Of a stretch of DNA of 61,600 nucleotides, positions 2,426 through 61,600 are shown in pieces; position 1 is the stretch's first letter, and each line of letters begins with the position of its first letter. The DNA is from a virus. Both the position numbers and the translations under genes were made by a program. Location: the IMG/VR virus record IMGVR_UViG_3300029787_000035, positions 1 through 61,600 of that record; one strand, given 5' to 3'. A model generated the notes under the pieces. The model was not told the DNA's origin, ran no database searches, and was given only the letters and a program-made list of their open reading frames with translations.

Positions 2426-2627
2426 TACTAGAATAAAAGCAAAAGAACTTTTTACTATTGAGTTAGATCATGCAAACAACACGCTTACCTTTATTGTAAA
2501 TGGTAAGATTATGAATGTTATAAAAACATTTAAAGCAGAAAACTTGTTTGATAGAATGTTGAAGATAGCAAAATTTAAATTTTTAAAAATGAGAGACTCT
2601 AGTAGAAAAGAATATATTGAAAACTAA
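2394..2627 (+). CDS. Hypothetical early protein
   Basis: 77 residues, no recognised domain. A GGAG lies 6 bases before the ATG. It overlaps the gene before by 32 bases and the methyltransferase start by 11 bases, so all four early genes form one tightly packed operon. Confidence 0.65.
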   Translation: MMTESDLKRVDTRIKAKELFTIELDHANNTLTFIVNGKIMNVIKTFKAENLFDRMLKIAKFKFLKMRDSSRKEYIEN

Positions 2628-3819
2628 ACTCAAGGTATTAGATTTATTCAGTGGGATTGGAGGCTTTAGTTTAGGTCTTCACTCTACTGATATATTTGAT
2701 ACAGTAAAGTTTGTAGAGTTTGATGAATTTTGTCAAAAAGTTTTAAAAAAAAATTTTCCAAACATACCAATTGAAGGAGATATAAGAAATGTCAAAGGAA
2801 AAGAATTTGAAGCAGATGTCATTGTTGGAGGATTCCCCTGTCAACCATTCAGTGTTGCAGGAAAACAAAAAGGGAGAGATGACAACAGATATCTCTGGCC
2901 AGAAATGTTTAGACTCATTAAAGAAATCAAACCCGAGTTCATTATTGGAGAGAATGTGCAGGGACTTGTTAACCTCCAAAACGGCATGGTCCTCAGACAG
3001 GTGCAAGATGACTTGGAAGGTGAAGGTTTCGAAGTCCAATGTTTCCTTATACCAGCTTCAGGCATCGGTGCTTGGCACCAAAGATTTAGGGTCTGGATTG
3101 TGGGCCACTCCAAACACAATGGATTACTTGCCGCCGAGAAGCGCAGCAGGGACAAAAAAATTAATGGAGGGACACAGGAAAGGCAGAACCAAACCATCGA
3201 ATCTGAGAGAACAAGTGGATCCAGAAACGATGAAGATGTATCCAACACCTCAAGCAGCCGATCACTTAGCAAACAAATCGGAGACACTAGAAGCATGGGA
3301 GAAGAGAGCAAAAAAGAAAAAGGAAGAGAACGGAGTGAATCTACAATTTGCACTTCGACACGCAGTTCAACGAGACGAGAGAGAAAAGTTAAAGATGTAT
3401 CCAACACCATCGGCCAACGAACAACAGTATCGACTGAAGGGAAACACTCAAGCATCGAAGTGCCTAGAAGCAATGGCAAGGAGAGGAGAGATAATGTATC
3501 CTACACCATCAGCGAGTTGTCAGATGGATGTAGTAGCACCACCAGAAACAGTGAAAAAGAATTCATCCGGTTGGAGTGTAACGAGGGTTGGCACTGGAAC
3601 GAAGTTCGGAGCGAAGTTGAACGATGTAGTGAACAAAGTAAATCAACCAATCAAACCTGGTGGCAAATTGAATCCGACCTTTGTGGAGTTCCTAATGGGA
3701 TTTCCAGAGAATTGGACAAAGATAGAGCAAGCAGAATCAAAAGTCTCGGAAACGCAATCGTCCCACAAATGGCAAGAATCTTCGGACTCGCAATTAAAAA
3801 AGTTTTATCCGACTCCTAG
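2617..3819 (+). CDS. dcm: DNA (cytosine-5-)-methyltransferase
   Basis: 400 residues from a TTG start; no ATG precedes motif I, so TTG is the likely initiator. The conserved C5-methyltransferase motifs appear in order: I (DLFSGIGGFSLG, residues 9-20, AdoMet binding), IV (GGFPCQPFS, catalytic Cys75), VI (ENV, 112-114), VIII (QRFR, 155-158) and X (LGNAIVP, about 377-383). Residues about 165-350, where the target-recognition domain lies, are low-complexity, Ser/Arg/Glu-rich, with repeated VSNT/VSYT motifs. That stretch is less AT-rich than the rest of the genome and is open in a second frame (see 2789-4333). The enzyme would methylate phage DNA at an unknown site, protecting it from host restriction or providing a 5-methylcytosine substrate for further modification. 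Confidence 0.92.
   Translation: MKTKLKVLDLFSGIGGFSLGLHSTDIFDTVKFVEFDEFCQKVLKKNFPNIPIEGDIRNVKGKEFEADVIVGGFPCQPFSVAGKQKGRDDNRYLWPEMFRLIKEIKPEFIIGENVQGLVNLQNGMVLRQVQDDLEGEGFEVQCFLIPASGIGAWHQRFRVWIVGHSKHNGLLAAEKRSRDKKINGGTQERQNQTIESERTSGSRNDEDVSNTSSSRSLSKQIGDTRSMGEESKKEKGRERSESTICTSTRSSTRRERKVKDVSNTIGQRTTVSTEGKHSSIEVPRSNGKERRDNVSYTISELSDGCSSTTRNSEKEFIRLECNEGWHWNEVRSEVERCSEQSKSTNQTWWQIESDLCGVPNGISRELDKDRASRIKSLGNAIVPQMARIFGLAIKKVLSDS
2774..2791 (+). promoter_or_regulatory. Internal ribosome binding site for the overprinted ORF
   Basis: AAGGAG at 2774-2779 lies 9 bases before the ATG at 2789, inside the methyltransferase gene. In the methyltransferase frame it codes for part of IEGDIRN. It is one of the better Shine-Dalgarno sites in this operon and supports internal initiation of the overlapping frame. 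Confidence 0.6.
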
Positions 3820-4333
3820 AGCAAATGAACCTGGTAGAACAACTAAAGGTTATGGTAGGGGTTTAGCAGAATTGATGGAAGGTAAAGAACAAAGAGAACC
3901 AAAGAAGATGTATAGAACACCTACTGCAATGGACAAGGGTGATAATAGTTTTAAGTATGCAGCTAAAATATTAAAAGGTAAATTAAATAGATCTCAGTCT
4001 AAGCAACCGGTACAGAAAACATTATCTATGGATGTAGCTATGGAGCATTTAAAAAACAATCAACACTTAATAGAAGCTTACGATGAAAAATTTAAGATGA
4101 GACCTCAGCTCCCACCTAAAGAAACATTTATTAAATATTTAAGAGAGAACCTGGATAAGAAAAAATTAGTTGAAGATAATATAATTAAGAAGACAACTAT
4201 TGATCATTGGTTAAGATCGGATCATTGCTTTGCATACCCTACCGTTGAATATTGGAATATGATTAAGCCATACTTAAAAGAAATTAAATTCGATTATCAA
4301 ATGACATTTGAAATCGAGTCTGATTGGGAATGA
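2789..4333 (+). CDS. PTP-repeat protein overprinted on the C5 methyltransferase
   Basis: 514 residues in a different frame from the methyltransferase; the first 1031 bases are shared, the last 514 are its own. Visible features are an MTWKVKVSKSN...YQLQAS segment, then repeated motifs of the form WATPNTMD, YPTPQAAD, YPTPSANE, YPTPSASC, YPTPRANE and YRTPTAMD, and FVEFLMGFPENWT where the other frame encodes VPNGIS. I recognise this arrangement from phage proteins usually labelled as methyltransferase-related. The unshared C-terminal part (KKTTIDHWLRSDHCFAYP...) resembles a small domain found at the end of phage methylases. The stop overlaps the next ATG as ATGA (4330-4333), so this frame is coupled to the Mom-like gene. 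The function is unknown; an accessory or DNA-recognition role in modification is inferred. Confidence 0.72.
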   Translation: MSKEKNLKQMSLLEDSPVNHSVLQENKKGEMTTDISGQKCLDSLKKSNPSSLLERMCRDLLTSKTAWSSDRCKMTWKVKVSKSNVSLYQLQASVLGTKDLGSGLWATPNTMDYLPPRSAAGTKKLMEGHRKGRTKPSNLREQVDPETMKMYPTPQAADHLANKSETLEAWEKRAKKKKEENGVNLQFALRHAVQRDEREKLKMYPTPSANEQQYRLKGNTQASKCLEAMARRGEIMYPTPSASCQMDVVAPPETVKKNSSGWSVTRVGTGTKFGAKLNDVVNKVNQPIKPGGKLNPTFVEFLMGFPENWTKIEQAESKVSETQSSHKWQESSDSQLKKFYPTPRANEPGRTTKGYGRGLAELMEGKEQREPKKMYRTPTAMDKGDNSFKYAAKILKGKLNRSQSKQPVQKTLSMDVAMEHLKNNQHLIEAYDEKFKMRPQLPPKETFIKYLRENLDKKKLVEDNIIKKTTIDHWLRSDHCFAYPTVEYWNMIKPYLKEIKFDYQMTFEIESDWE

Positions 4334-26656: not shown

Positions 26657-28264
26657 ATGAATATATTATCATTACATCTGGGGCACGATGGTGCTGTCAC
26701 TATTATTTCTGATAATGAGGTTATTGTCCATCATCAACTAGATAGATTTAATAAATTTAAAAACGAATTTTTTCCTACATTTGAAGTTCTTCAAAAAATA
26801 AAAGATTTAAATATTAAAATTGATAAAGTTATTACTACCTCTATGGGAGGTATAAATTTTCCAATATGGTATTTTATAAAAAAATTTTTTAATTTAGAAC
26901 AAGAAAACTTGTTAGATATTGGACAAACACAACATCATATTTTTCATGCAGAATGTGTAAAATATTTTTATCAACAAAAAGAAAATTTTATAACATTTGT
27001 AGCAGATGGAGATGGTGCAGAACATTTTTTAAAACATGACTCACAATATTTAAATACATTAAAAGTTATTGAAAACGAAACTATTTTTAATGATAAACAC
27101 GAAAACTTATATAAAAAATATCATTGTGGTAAACCTATGAATGTATATTCTGATAAATTAAGAATACATGACAGTATATCTTATGGTAAAGGCTATCAAA
27201 AATTAACCTATGAATTAGGACTTGAAGAACATGAAGAAGGTAAAGCAATGGCTTTATCATCTTTTGGAACATTTAAAGATGAGATATTTAAAAACTTAAT
27301 TTTTAATGATTCTTGGAATCTTAATTTGGTTAACGATATACAAGATAGCTATGACTCTAAAAATACTTACAATAGATTTATGTTGAATCCTAATGTAAAT
27401 CATTTGTTAGAAAATTCACCAAGTTTAGATTTTGTTCATACTTTTCAAAAAGCATTTGAAGCATTATATCTTAATACACTTAAAAAAGTAGACTATAAAA
27501 ATAAAACAATATTATTAAGTGGTGGTTGTGCTCAAAATGTACTTAATAATACCAATTTAAAAAATACTTTAAAAAACAAAATTTTACCAGACCCTTTTAA
27601 TGGTGATTTTGGTATATCCTTGGGAGCAGCATTAGTAGCAGATAATAACAAAACTAAACCTCTTAAACATATATGTTCGGGGTTTGAGCCAGATAAAAAT
27701 ATCTCTTATTTTAATAATTTTAAAATAAAAAATACAACTGCTAAAGAAGTTGCAGCAATATTAGTTAATGAACCAGTCGCTATTGTATCTGGTAAAAGTG
27801 AACAAGGACAAAGAGGTTTAGGTTTTAGGTCTTTATTAGGCAATCCATTCAAGAAAGATATTTTAAATAAAATTAATAAAATAAAAAAAAGAGAGTGGTA
27901 TAGACCATTTGCTTGTACTGTTATTGAACAAGATGCTAGTAAATACTTTGAAATTGATAACAATGAAACATCTCCCTATATGATGTTTGTCTATAAAGCA
28001 AAAAATGACATTACAAAAAATGTTTGTTCTGTTGATGGTTATAGTAGAATTCAAACATTAAATAAAAATTTTCATCCTAAATACTTTAATTTAATTACAT
28101 GTTTTAAAAAACTCACAAAACATGGTGTTGTTTTAAATACTTCATTAAATTTACCAGGGCATGTTTTATGTGAAGAATATTCCGAAGTAGCACATATGAT
28201 GAAGAATTCAGATTTAAAATATTGCTATTTATCAGATTTAAATAAATTAGTATGCAAGAAATAG
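26657..28264 (+). CDS. Carbamoyltransferase, NodU/CmcH/TobZ family (copy 1)
   Basis: 535 residues, normal length for the family. The N-terminal Kae1-like domain starts MNILSLHLGHDGAVTII and has the HH motif (QTQHHIFHAEC) and the glycine motif ILLSGGCAQN. The C-terminal YrdC-like domain has SEQGQRGLGFRS, YRPFACTVIE, SRIQTL and VVLNTSLNLPG. The family transfers a carbamoyl group from carbamoyl phosphate through carbamoyl-adenylate to a hydroxyl of a sugar or base. It shares 13 bases with the downstream 2OG oxygenase gene, so the two are co-translated. Acceptor unknown. It is only distantly similar to the second carbamoyltransferase at 42683. Confidence 0.88.
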   Translation: MNILSLHLGHDGAVTIISDNEVIVHHQLDRFNKFKNEFFPTFEVLQKIKDLNIKIDKVITTSMGGINFPIWYFIKKFFNLEQENLLDIGQTQHHIFHAECVKYFYQQKENFITFVADGDGAEHFLKHDSQYLNTLKVIENETIFNDKHENLYKKYHCGKPMNVYSDKLRIHDSISYGKGYQKLTYELGLEEHEEGKAMALSSFGTFKDEIFKNLIFNDSWNLNLVNDIQDSYDSKNTYNRFMLNPNVNHLLENSPSLDFVHTFQKAFEALYLNTLKKVDYKNKTILLSGGCAQNVLNNTNLKNTLKNKILPDPFNGDFGISLGAALVADNNKTKPLKHICSGFEPDKNISYFNNFKIKNTTAKEVAAILVNEPVAIVSGKSEQGQRGLGFRSLLGNPFKKDILNKINKIKKREWYRPFACTVIEQDASKYFEIDNNETSPYMMFVYKAKNDITKNVCSVDGYSRIQTLNKNFHPKYFNLITCFKKLTKHGVVLNTSLNLPGHVLCEEYSEVAHMMKNSDLKYCYLSDLNKLVCKK

Positions 28265-42174: not shown

Positions 42175-42686
42175 TGTATCAACAATTATTTGGTAGTCCT
42201 ATTTGGGTAACTAAAATACAACCACCAAAAATTTTTCTAGATAGCAAGAATTTTAAACCAAATTGGGGAAGTCAAACTTTGTCTTCTTTCAGTCAAAATC
42301 CAGAGGATAATATATTAAAAGAAAATGGTGAAACATATCTTTTAAATAAAATTAATAATTGTCTTATTGATTTAAATGTAAAAAAAATAAGATTAATTAA
42401 TATTTGGCGAAACATTTATCAAAATACTTTTCAAGATAGACACATGCATGTAAAGTCACATTTTAGTTTTACTATATATGAAAAGTTACCAAAACCTCAA
42501 ACTGTATTTTTTCACCCTGCTCATGATATGATTTATGCATTAGGATTAGAAAATTATATAGATCCTACAATTGCACCAAATGTTGTTGAAGGAGATATGG
42601 TTTTATTTCCAAGTTATTTAGAACATATGGTAAAGCCTAACGATCAAGCCATGACTATTAGTGGTAACATAGAAATAGTAGAATGA
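42174..42686 (+). CDS. 2OG-Fe(II) oxygenase-like protein coupled to a carbamoyltransferase
   Basis: 170 residues. It begins LFGSPIWVTKI like TIGR02466 oxygenases. DRHMHVKSHFSFTIYE provides His90 and His92, and EGDMVLFPSYLEHMVKP provides His151. The usual C-terminal arginine that binds 2-oxoglutarate is not evident (TISGNIEIVE), so it may bind another co-substrate or be degenerate. Its stop overlaps the carbamoyltransferase start as ATGA, so the two are coupled. Confidence 0.65.
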   Translation: MYQQLFGSPIWVTKIQPPKIFLDSKNFKPNWGSQTLSSFSQNPEDNILKENGETYLLNKINNCLIDLNVKKIRLINIWRNIYQNTFQDRHMHVKSHFSFTIYEKLPKPQTVFFHPAHDMIYALGLENYIDPTIAPNVVEGDMVLFPSYLEHMVKPNDQAMTISGNIEIVE

Positions 42687-44185
42687 AATTTTTGGGTCTT
42701 AGATTATGTGAGCATGACTCAAATATTTCTTACTCTGATGGCACAAGTGTAAAGTATTTTAAACACGAACGGTACAATCAAATTAAACATTATGGATGTA
42801 ATAATCTTTTTGAATGGTGTGAAATAGAAAATTATTTAAATATAAAACTATCTGACCTAGACGCAATAGCTATAGTGATTGATGTTTTTAGATATCCTCA
42901 CCTTAAAAAAGAAGATCCAGAAGCTCTTTTTGAAAAATTTAAAATACCACAAAAACCATTTACTGATTTAGACTGTCCAGTATTTAGAGTTGATCATCAT
43001 TATGCTCATAGTTTATCTAATTGGCCACTTGTTGATAAAGCAGATGTTGACTTTGTATTAGATGGGTTTGGTGACTTAAGAAGATCTTGTAGTATTTTTT
43101 CTAATAATAAATTTGTAGATGTATTTACTTTAGAAACAATGTTTTCTTTGGGTAAACAATTGTCACTTATGGGTGAACACATGAACATCTTTGCAGTTGG
43201 TGATGATGCTGCAGGCAAACTAATGGCCTTAAAAGCTTTTGGTAATTTTAATCAAAAGTATTATGATTACATGTCACAATTCGAATTAAATGATACTAAA
43301 AAAATATTTGATTATAATGAATTTGTAAAATGTGTAGGAAGTGAACTAGCAGCTAATTATAAATTTATAGATTATTTAAGAACTCTGCATGACTACATGG
43401 AAGTTGCGTTTCCTAAATTTTTTATGAAGTATGCAAAATCAAATGATGTTATTACTTATTCTGGTGGGGTAGCACACAATGTGTGTATAAATACACAAAT
43501 AAGAAAACAGTTTCCTAATTTAATTATACCACCTCATTGTAATGATGAAGGCTTGTCTTTAGGTTGTATTGAATTTTTAAGGCAACATTACAATCAACCA
43601 AAATTTAAAAACACTGGCTATCCTTATTGGCAATCTGATATGAGACCAGAAAAAGACGCTTCTTCAGAAACAATTAAAAAAACTGCAGAAGATTTAGCTA
43701 ATGGTAAAATTATTGGTTGGTATCAAGGACATGGTGAAATAGGACCAAGAGCTTTAGGTAATAGATCAATACTTATGAGTCCAGAAGTTAAAAATGGAAA
43801 ACATATACTTAATAGTAAAGTAAAACATAGAGAAGATTATAGACCTTTTGCAGCATCAATTTTAATAGAAGATACAAAAAATTATTTTGATTGGGAAGGA
43901 GAAAGTGATTATATGAAATACAGTGTTAAATTTAAAGACAAAGTATTTGAACCTATTTCACATATAGATAATACTAGCAGAATACAAACAGTAAAACCTA
44001 ATCTAAATATTTATTATGAACTTATATCTGAGTTTAAAAAACTGACTGGTCTTCCAATGTTATTAAATACTTCTTTGAATGATAATGGTAAACCAATAGC
44101 AGGTAAACCTGCAGACGCATTAGCTTTACTTAAAAATTCTGAATTAGATAGTTTAGTTATTGGTGATACAACTATAAACAAATGA
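42683..44185 (+). CDS. Carbamoyltransferase, NodU/CmcH family (copy 2)
   Basis: 500 residues. MKFLGLRLCEHDSNISY, VDHHYAHSLSN (HxxxH region), ITYSGGVAHN and the C-terminal YrdC-like GEIGPRALGNRSILMSP, REDYRPFAASI, SRIQTV and MLLNTSLNDNG show all canonical motifs, closer to the family consensus than copy 1. It should O-carbamoylate a hydroxylated acceptor. It lies between an oxygenase gene and a run of glycosyltransferase genes, overlapping both by 4 bases; all read as one operon. Confidence 0.92.
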   Translation: MKFLGLRLCEHDSNISYSDGTSVKYFKHERYNQIKHYGCNNLFEWCEIENYLNIKLSDLDAIAIVIDVFRYPHLKKEDPEALFEKFKIPQKPFTDLDCPVFRVDHHYAHSLSNWPLVDKADVDFVLDGFGDLRRSCSIFSNNKFVDVFTLETMFSLGKQLSLMGEHMNIFAVGDDAAGKLMALKAFGNFNQKYYDYMSQFELNDTKKIFDYNEFVKCVGSELAANYKFIDYLRTLHDYMEVAFPKFFMKYAKSNDVITYSGGVAHNVCINTQIRKQFPNLIIPPHCNDEGLSLGCIEFLRQHYNQPKFKNTGYPYWQSDMRPEKDASSETIKKTAEDLANGKIIGWYQGHGEIGPRALGNRSILMSPEVKNGKHILNSKVKHREDYRPFAASILIEDTKNYFDWEGESDYMKYSVKFKDKVFEPISHIDNTSRIQTVKPNLNIYYELISEFKKLTGLPMLLNTSLNDNGKPIAGKPADALALLKNSELDSLVIGDTTINK

Positions 44186-59935: not shown

Positions 59936-60186
59936 TGATGACAAATAAAGGAATGTTTGATGAAGCTAAAGATGCAGATGAAAAACAGATTGGAGGATCC
60001 CACTATAAATCGTTTATCATTCAACCGTGGACTTTTATAAGAAAGAATGGTCTAAATCCCTTTCAAGCAAATGTAATTAAATATGTATGTAGATATTTAT
60101 TCAAAGGTAAAACAATTGAGGATATTGATAAAATTATTCATTACTGTGAATTAGAGAAGCAACATTTGAAAGAAGAGAAAAAATGA
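59935..60186 (+). CDS. DUF3310 protein (SaV-like)
   Basis: 83 residues. QIGGSHYKSFIIQPWTFIRKN, VIKYVCRYLFKGKTIEDIDKIIHYCEL is the DUF3310 signature, common in phage replication regions; related proteins were once called nucleotide kinases. ATG 59938 is an alternative start. Its stop overlaps the polymerase start (ATGA). Confidence 0.87.
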   Translation: MMTNKGMFDEAKDADEKQIGGSHYKSFIIQPWTFIRKNGLNPFQANVIKYVCRYLFKGKTIEDIDKIIHYCELEKQHLKEEKK

Positions 60187-61600
60187 ACGGACTACAACTT
60201 ACATTAACTTTTAAAAAATCTATGTGGAATACACCAAGTGAATATAAAGATTTATCTGGTGCAAGTGAAATAGCTATTGATCTAGAGACAAGGGATGATG
60301 GTATTAATGAAAAACTTGGAGCTGGTTGGGCTTTAGGTAAGGGAGAGATTGTAGGATTTGCAGTAGCTGTTGATGGATGGCAGGGATACTTTCCGTTTGG
60401 TCATTTAGGTGGTGGTAATATGATACCTGAACAAGTTAAAGCATACATGAAAAAAGTTTGTAGCTTACCTTGTACTAAAGTATTTCATAATGCTCAGTAC
60501 GATGTAGGATGGCTTGAAGCATCAGGGATCACGGTCAACGGACAAATAGTAGATACAATGATAGCTGCAGCACTTATAGATGAAAACAGATTTCAATATA
60601 ATTTAAATAGTTTATCAGTTGATTATCTTGGAGAAATAAAAGCAGAAACAGAATTAAGAGAAGCTGCCGCAGCACATGGTATAGATCCTAAAGCAGAGAT
60701 GTGGAAGTTACCTGCAGAACATGTTGGATATTATGCAGAACAAGATGCAGTGCTTACTTTAAAGTTGTGGCAAAGATTTAAACAAGAAATAAGAACTCAG
60801 AGTTTAGAAACAATTTGGGATCTAGAACAACAATTAATTCCTGTCTTAATAAAAATGCGTCAACGAGGAGTGAGAGTCCAAGTGGAATTAGCTGAACAAT
60901 TAAAAAAACAAATGTTGATCCAAGAAAAAGAATTACTGGTGGCCATACAAAAAGAATCAGGAATAGAAGTAGACATTTGGGCATCACGCCAGATTGCCAA
61001 AGCTTTTGACAAAATGAAGTTAGATTATCCACGAACTGAAAAAACAAAAGAGCCTTCCTTTACACAAAATTGGTTAATAAATAACAAACATAAACTAGCA
61101 CAGTTGATTGTGCAAGCCAGAGAGGTAAATAAATTTCATAGTACCTTTCTTTCATCTATACTTCGATACCAGGTTAAAGGTAGAATCCATGGAGAGATAC
61201 AACAATTAAGATCAGATTCTGGAGGAACTGTATCGGGTAGACTATCTATGAGTAACCCAAACTTACAACAAGTACCAGCTAGAAATAAAGATCTTGGTCC
61301 TAAAATAAGATCGCTATTCATACCAGAAGAAGGCTATCAATGGGGTTCATTTGACTATTCACAACAAGAACCAAGGATGACTGTGCATTATGCAGCATCT
61401 ATTGGAGACAATGGTTATGCAGGATCTCAAGAATTAGTTGAAGCATACAAAGATAATAGTGCAGACTTTCATCAAACAGTTGCAGATCTTGTAGGTATTG
61501 AGAGAACTCAAGCTAAGACTATAGGCCTTGGTATAATGTATGGAATGGGTAAAAATAAATTAGCATTATCATTAGGAGTTACTAAAGATGAAGCAGATGA
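60183..61600 (+). CDS. polA: DNA polymerase I (family A), N-terminal and central part
   Basis: Runs off the window end and continues at base 3 of the left end. The 3'-5' exonuclease is present: ExoI AIDLET (Asp33, Glu35), ExoII HNAQYD (Asp107), ExoIII YYAEQD (Tyr184, Asp188). The polymerase domain has SGRLSMSNPNLQQVPAR, motif A FDYSQQEPR, and motif B RTQAKTIGLGIMYG at the window edge. No 5' nuclease domain. This is the replicative polymerase of T7/SAR11-phage type. It overlaps the DUF3310 stop by 4 bases. Confidence 0.95.
   Translation, partial: MNGLQLTLTFKKSMWNTPSEYKDLSGASEIAIDLETRDDGINEKLGAGWALGKGEIVGFAVAVDGWQGYFPFGHLGGGNMIPEQVKAYMKKVCSLPCTKVFHNAQYDVGWLEASGITVNGQIVDTMIAAALIDENRFQYNLNSLSVDYLGEIKAETELREAAAAHGIDPKAEMWKLPAEHVGYYAEQDAVLTLKLWQRFKQEIRTQSLETIWDLEQQLIPVLIKMRQRGVRVQVELAEQLKKQMLIQEKELLVAIQKESGIEVDIWASRQIAKAFDKMKLDYPRTEKTKEPSFTQNWLINNKHKLAQLIVQAREVNKFHSTFLSSILRYQVKGRIHGEIQQLRSDSGGTVSGRLSMSNPNLQQVPARNKDLGPKIRSLFIPEEGYQWGSFDYSQQEPRMTVHYAASIGDNGYAGSQELVEAYKDNSADFHQTVADLVGIERTQAKTIGLGIMYGMGKNKLALSLGVTKDEAD
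61503..61600. repeat. Terminal direct repeat, right copy
   Basis: Identical to bases 3-100. It shows that the contig closes into a circle of about 61.5 kb or comes from circularly permuted DNA. Confidence 0.9.

Follow-up and report, generated by a model that had tools for sequence, protein, structure and literature searches.

The window analysed here, a stretch of 61,600 nucleotides, comes from a marine phage and carries two nested reading frames, alpha and beta, which lie on the same strand, are offset by one base and have 1,028 bases in common (Table 1). Alpha encodes the catalytic chain of a C5 cytosine methyltransferase; beta continues beyond the end of alpha and stops in an ATGA that overlaps the start of the next open reading frame (4324/4330-4908). 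A preliminary description of this DNA had pointed to the two coding frames, to the AAGGAG ahead of beta and to the joining of the beta stop to the next gene, and all three were recovered. The base-by-base correspondence that it gave between the PTP motifs of beta and the VSNT-type stretches of alpha is exact, and, as it had noted, the series continues: two more PTP motifs start where the methyltransferase ends or later. Its observation that the shared stretch is less AT-rich holds for most of the genome, where GC is ~30-33% against 43% at 3001-4000, but other segments also reach 40-44%.

Table 1. Features of the nested alpha/beta locus, in window coordinates
Feature	Position	Strand	Remarks
alpha, catalytic subunit, C5 cytosine methyltransferase	2617..3819	+	TTG start, 400 aa
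alpha motif I, DLFSGIGGF	2641..2667	+	
beta ribosome-binding site, AAGGAG	2774..2779	+	9 bases 5' of beta ATG
beta, proposed specificity subunit	2789..4333	+	ATG start, +1 frame, 514 aa
beta N-terminal conserved domain, residues 1-104	2789..3100	+	conserved S36, G37, W76, L90
alpha motif IV, GGFPCQPFS	2827..2853	+	catalytic Cys
alpha motif VI, ENV	2947..2967	+	
alpha motif VIII region, WHQRFRVWIV	3073..3102	+	
beta module 1, WATPNTMD...	3101..3238	+	
alpha residues 185-362, open, predicted disordered	3169..3702	+	alpha-frame reading of beta modules and motif IX
beta module 2, YPTPQAAD...	3239..3397	+	
beta module 3, YPTPSANE...	3398..3496	+	
beta module 4, YPTPSASC...	3497..3655	+	
beta motif-IX-like element, PGGKLNPTFVEFLMGFPENWTK	3656..3721	+	most conserved beta segment
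alpha motif X, RIKSLGNAIVPQ	3733..3768	+	helices 370-378 and 383-399 in model
beta module 5, YPTPRANE...	3806..3910	+	3' of motif IX, straddles alpha stop
beta module 6, YRTPTAMD..., with HWxR domain	3911..4330	+	beyond alpha
ATGA, beta stop overlapping ATG of next open reading frame	4330..4333	+	

At least the last 50 bases of the record are repeated at its start (61500-61600 compared with 1-100), and the gene for DNA polymerase A spans the record ends (60183-61598 and 36-557), which makes it probable that the whole genome is present, in circular or redundant-ended form. An open reading frame for a LAGLIDADG endonuclease (544-975), probably a homing gene, overlaps the 3' end of the polymerase gene. 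The phage also has two carbamoyltransferase genes (26657-28261 and 42683-44182), one Nol-like by PHROGs and the other with Pfam Carbam_trans domains.

The openness of the two frames was evaluated by resampling codons from the usage of this genome with the alpha protein held fixed. In 2,000 trials the beta frame acquired a mean of 20.3 stops and never fewer than 10, whereas the real sequence has none; the third frame has 30. When the beta codons were resampled instead, 18.8 alpha-frame stops (minimum 9) were expected over the module array, where none is present. Both frames are being kept open, and the beta reading frame is real.

Loci found through beta comprised 64 and then 80 viral loci, 80 on contigs of bacterial or archaeal genomes and those of annotated phages, and in 230 of 230 both frames are open with the same +1 offset. 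The length of the overlap varies from ~250 bases, in fragments, to about 1,620; since the offset is nevertheless always 1, insertions and deletions come in threes. A few loci (L038, L141, L194 and L217) carry frameshifts. A search with alpha alone, made to avoid conditioning on beta, also put to the test the refuting condition of the preliminary description, namely methyltransferase homologues with stops in the second frame, and dual coding withstood it: a nested beta was present in 153 of 154 loci, the last being cut by its contig end. These 154 are the closest relatives returned, and more distant canonical methyltransferases have no beta. A Shine-Dalgarno core precedes the beta start in 51/56 loci, and the alpha residues encoded there vary (E-G-D or E-E-D). 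Judged from these sequences, the nesting of alpha and beta recurs in many phages and proviruses, and is widespread and little recognised. One of the loci, L151, lies on a contig assigned to a Lokiarchaeota metagenome-assembled genome; it has an alpha/beta end 51% similar to the window and belongs either to an archaeal provirus or to phage DNA that was mis-binned. A single Roseovarius chromosome assembly (OX638333.1) has alpha/beta loci that look identical at five separate positions, perhaps near-identical prophages.

Selection on the two frames was read from the pairwise differences at alpha codon positions 1/2/3. Upstream of beta these are.173/.127/.393. Both overlap ends are slow at every position (.103/.045/.173 and.101/.070/.141), while across the module array the values are.381/.228/.218, the fastest being the first alpha position, equivalent to the third of beta. 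Past the alpha stop the values of.334/.123/.057 correspond to the ordinary periodicity of a gene in the beta frame. Synonymous-site conservation, which the preliminary description had also put forward as a check, was borne out: codons for identical alpha residues differ in 41% of cases upstream and in 21, 10 and 11% within the overlap. We rely here on codon-difference rates and not on a codon-resampling comparison of identities, which exaggerates because the real divergence is unsaturated. In addition, alpha-frame stops are absent from the HWxR module in the five loci that hold it within alpha (L094, L120, L135, L140 and L149) and number 11-27 in the 25 loci where it lies beyond. The substitution phases and the HWxR stops therefore show that the ends of the overlap (2789-3100 and ~3656-3816) are dually constrained and that the middle is mainly under beta constraint. 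In the 555-base array the alpha frame is, on this sequence evidence, merely kept open. The dual constraint over about 1 kb that had been proposed for this locus thus stands at both ends; in its uniform form it is ruled out by the beta-driven substitutions in the array.

These data also bear on whether the second frame could be a shadow open reading frame, that is, an untranslated by-product of conservation or composition of the methyltransferase frame. Apparent families of alternative-frame proteins do arise in this manner in GC-rich genomes. This genome, however, is AT-rich, and the stop counts already contradict such an origin, as do the reduced synonymous change, the beta-phase periodicity over the array and past the alpha stop, and the existence of relatives, described below, with beta in a gene of its own that is not nested. 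We regard this explanation as highly improbable.

The alpha chain matches the profiles PF00145 (E=1.9e-52), TIGR00675 and phrog_363, and has motifs I, IV (PCQ), VI (ENV), VIII and X in the order typical of C5 cytosine methyltransferases. The earlier statement that all catalytic motifs lie in one frame is correct for these five, but no motif IX is recognisable in the alpha frame, and the Pfam DNA_methylase match ends at residue 276 of 400. In the structure model, residues 1-170, which hold motifs I-VIII, have pLDDT values mostly of 80-96, and the motif X helices are also confident. The folded part resembles M.HaeIII and M.HhaI (Foldseek E ~1e-14), in agreement with the sequence comparison. Residues 185-362 are modelled with pLDDT ~30-43 and next to no secondary structure. 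Alpha therefore does not display the motif IX and folded target-recognition domain (TRD) that a monomeric enzyme has in the same chain. Since residues 185-362 are modelled as disordered and only motifs I-VIII and X as folded, the small domain that contains the TRD and motif IX of known enzymes appears to be missing from alpha.

For beta, profile matches came from PHROGs only, the best being phrog_1008 (E=2.2e-30), labelled 'DNA methyltransferase'; Pfam and NCBIfam gave no match. Behind a conserved N-terminal domain, beta consists of modules that open with a [WY]xTP signature and of a conserved element with the pattern LNPxFVEFLMGFPxxWT, upstream of which typically 2-7 modules are found per beta. 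Strict clustering, used after loose clustering had chained modules through the PTP signature, divided the 685 modules of 205 distinct arrays into 176 families. Among the 50 families seen in at least three loci, 46 occupy more than one array position, and the same family is repeated within only 5 of the 205 arrays. By this comparison, the modules are shuffled among loci. Profile comparison of the conserved element with motif IX of canonical C5 methyltransferases gave no significant match, and the label motif IX accordingly rests on its position and on the pattern (K/R)LxPxxxxxLMGFPxxW. The structure model of beta is of low confidence (pLDDT 67, pTM 0.29) and no fold relative was found with it; a poor model would be expected, though this is not proof, if beta folds only together with alpha. 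Modules 5 and 6 follow motif IX, unlike the TRDs in known multispecific enzymes. The HWxR domain of module 6 is also found within an N4/N6 methyltransferase of Staphylococcus phage Alsa_4 (L069, 1928-3070), between its TSPPY and C-terminal DPF motifs, which is likely the recognition region; this gene adjoins a Mom-like gene.

The place of the beta parts in a methyltransferase can be seen in relatives with other gene layouts. Cornucopia gp70 and Babsiella gp54, from mycobacteriophages, and gp4 of the Gordonia phage Jabberwocky contain motifs I-VIII, PTP modules, the motif-IX-like element and motif X in a single chain. LHTSCC gp81/gp80, Chickaboom gp41/gp42, phiBT1, L142 and L211 are split over two un-nested genes with motif X on the second. 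In both groups the motif-IX-like element lies in the same frame as motif X and directly before it. From this layout it follows that the PTP array takes the place of the TRD and that the conserved element stands where motif IX would be. The window divides the same set of parts between two nested genes, with motif X back on alpha. Position and relatives thus suggest that beta is the subunit that supplies target recognition and motif IX to the enzyme of which alpha is a part.

Several of these relatives show features of their own. For phiBT1 (L248, 726-1830), the annotation calls gp9.1 a methylase and adds that it 'may be inactive'. This gene is followed by an unannotated +1 frame with beta-type modules, the motif-IX-like element and motif X; since this frame carries the missing parts, the enzyme may be intact but split. 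In Babsiella (L244, 563-871), gp55 is nested in the +1 frame inside gp54 and has further PTP modules, so that arrays occur in both frames of one gene. The annotated start of LHTSCC gp80 (L238, 1417-2512) is a TTG at a PTP motif, and the beta frame is open farther upstream with sequence like that of the N-terminal domain; the annotated start is probably too far downstream. A standalone beta-like open reading frame with alpha-phase stops (L235, 2717-3181) directly follows a nested pair on a plasmid of Paenibacillus bovis; the beta family can therefore be encoded without overlap.

That standalone frame would also fit a beta that is an independent protein, for example an anti-restriction factor, a DNA mimic or a regulator, which merely overlaps the methyltransferase gene. 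The lack of any Pfam, NCBIfam or fold match for beta and the extension of extra modules past alpha point in the same direction. Nevertheless, we consider such independence unlikely, given that the same modules and motif occur inside single-chain methyltransferases between VIII and X, that motif X is in the beta frame of the un-nested pairs, that alpha has no small domain of its own, and that no beta was found without a methyltransferase nearby. A second alternative retains the link with the methyltransferase and makes the functional product a fused chain (I-VIII, modules, IX), generated by ribosomal frameshifting near alpha motif VIII, the internal start of beta being minor. The constant offset is compatible with such a shift, which would restore the single-chain order of Cornucopia and Jabberwocky; yet it would leave motif X in the other frame, and the Shine-Dalgarno sequence and start of beta are conserved, as is its N-terminal domain, which lies upstream of any such shift. 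Fusion by frameshifting is likewise improbable.

The preferred interpretation, to which we assign a probability of roughly 0.8, is that the two nested genes together specify a single DNA cytosine-5 methyltransferase, split and multispecific, with alpha as its catalytic subunit and beta as a specificity subunit with several TRDs. Its basis in the present data is the conservation of both frames, an alpha chain that has no folded small domain, and the position of the modules and motif IX in relatives. The half that alpha lacks is most likely beta, which would choose the DNA sequences to be marked. Alpha would provide AdoMet binding and catalysis through motifs I-VIII plus X, and beta, translated from its own ribosome-binding site, would supply the missing small domain. 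The conserved N-terminal part of beta probably docks on alpha, the PTP modules may each act as a TRD, and beta would also contribute motif IX. The two chains would associate and methylate one short sequence per module, a single target per module being proposed by analogy with the multispecific methyltransferases of Bacillus phages (PMC12707154). With several specificities, one enzyme could shield phage DNA against a number of host restriction systems. Over the beta array alpha would form a disordered linker, and its frame would be stop-free there because this linker must reach motif X.

It is about an even question, in our estimate, whether this extends to a library of recognition cassettes, of at least 176 families, that phages of many host phyla maintain, share and shuffle, with each cassette open in both frames, serving as a recognition module in one and as a stop-free alpha linker in the other. 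Recombination between cassettes of this type could swap methylation specificities and leave both subunits intact. If such a library exists, the nested pair would be among the widest and oldest known in prokaryotic viruses. The split-enzyme interpretation by itself would bring together, as a catalytic subunit and its specificity subunit, a large set of phage genes that at present bear the labels 'DNA methyltransferase', 'Mte8-like', 'hypothetical' or, for phiBT1 gp9.1, 'may be inactive'. The naturally shuffled modules would help to learn how C5 methyltransferases read DNA, and the locus would give a clear case of ancient overlapping coding, for which the un-nested and single-chain relatives serve as controls. 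It would also be a warning that annotation pipelines that drop one of two overlapping genes lose half an enzyme.

The preliminary description had assigned both frames to recurring phage families, and these are in part already annotated. Beta belongs to the same family as phrog_1008 and the 'Mte8-like protein' of Escherichia coli K1 phages; in the E. coli phage K1H the latter is nested with a 'C-specific methylase', and in Paenibacillus phage Bloom the nested pair is annotated as two 'DNA cytosine methyltransferases'. The name 'Mte8-like protein' comes with no functional account, and the beta of the window is longer, with modules past the alpha stop. Its description as a protein of no described function agrees with a literature search outside subscription journals, which found no functional description of the phage beta family; position and relatives now indicate a TRD/motif IX subunit. 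Hidden out-of-frame HNH genes are discussed in a 2025 account of homing insertions into the methylase of phage ShiLan, whose passages on them make no mention of beta (PMC11855218).

Several known systems resemble the locus in part. As in M.AquI, LHTSCC gp81/80 and phiBT1 gp9.1 with its beta, the large subunit carries motifs I-VIII and the small one would carry the recognition region and motif IX. In contrast to the M.AquI type, which is un-nested with X on the small subunit, the window has X on alpha and nested genes; IX and X are found together on the small subunit in L142, L211 and LHTSCC. As for nesting, Lee et al. 1995 reportedly placed the small-subunit gene of M.EcoHK31I, too, within that of the large subunit, read in a different frame. 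Split C5 enzymes are established in M.AquI and M.EcoHK31I, the latter (YGGCCR) being made of two polypeptides with motif IX on the small subunit (PMC3404938). By motif layout, alpha can be likened to the large subunit of M.EcoHK31I, with I-VIII and X and no IX, and the beta element has the pattern and position of a motif IX, its profile match to canonical motif IX being not significant. M.EcoHK31I differs in that its predicted TRD is on the large subunit, while the array at the TRD place in the window is on the small one and made of shuffled modules (2-7). The methyltransferases of the Bacillus phages SPbeta, phi3T and rho11 have several TRDs in one chain and act against many restriction-modification systems (PMC12707154). 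The window locus is likewise phage-borne with tandem variable modules, of which 1-4 precede motif IX and occupy the place of a TRD. The SPbeta type, however, is a single chain with a canonical motif IX, whereas in the window an overlapping frame encodes the array as part of a second polypeptide, and the PTP signature that opens each module sets it further apart; all domains are in one chain in relatives such as Cornucopia gp70. By analogy with these systems we conclude that the locus would combine a split of the M.EcoHK31I type with an SPbeta-like stacking of recognition domains.
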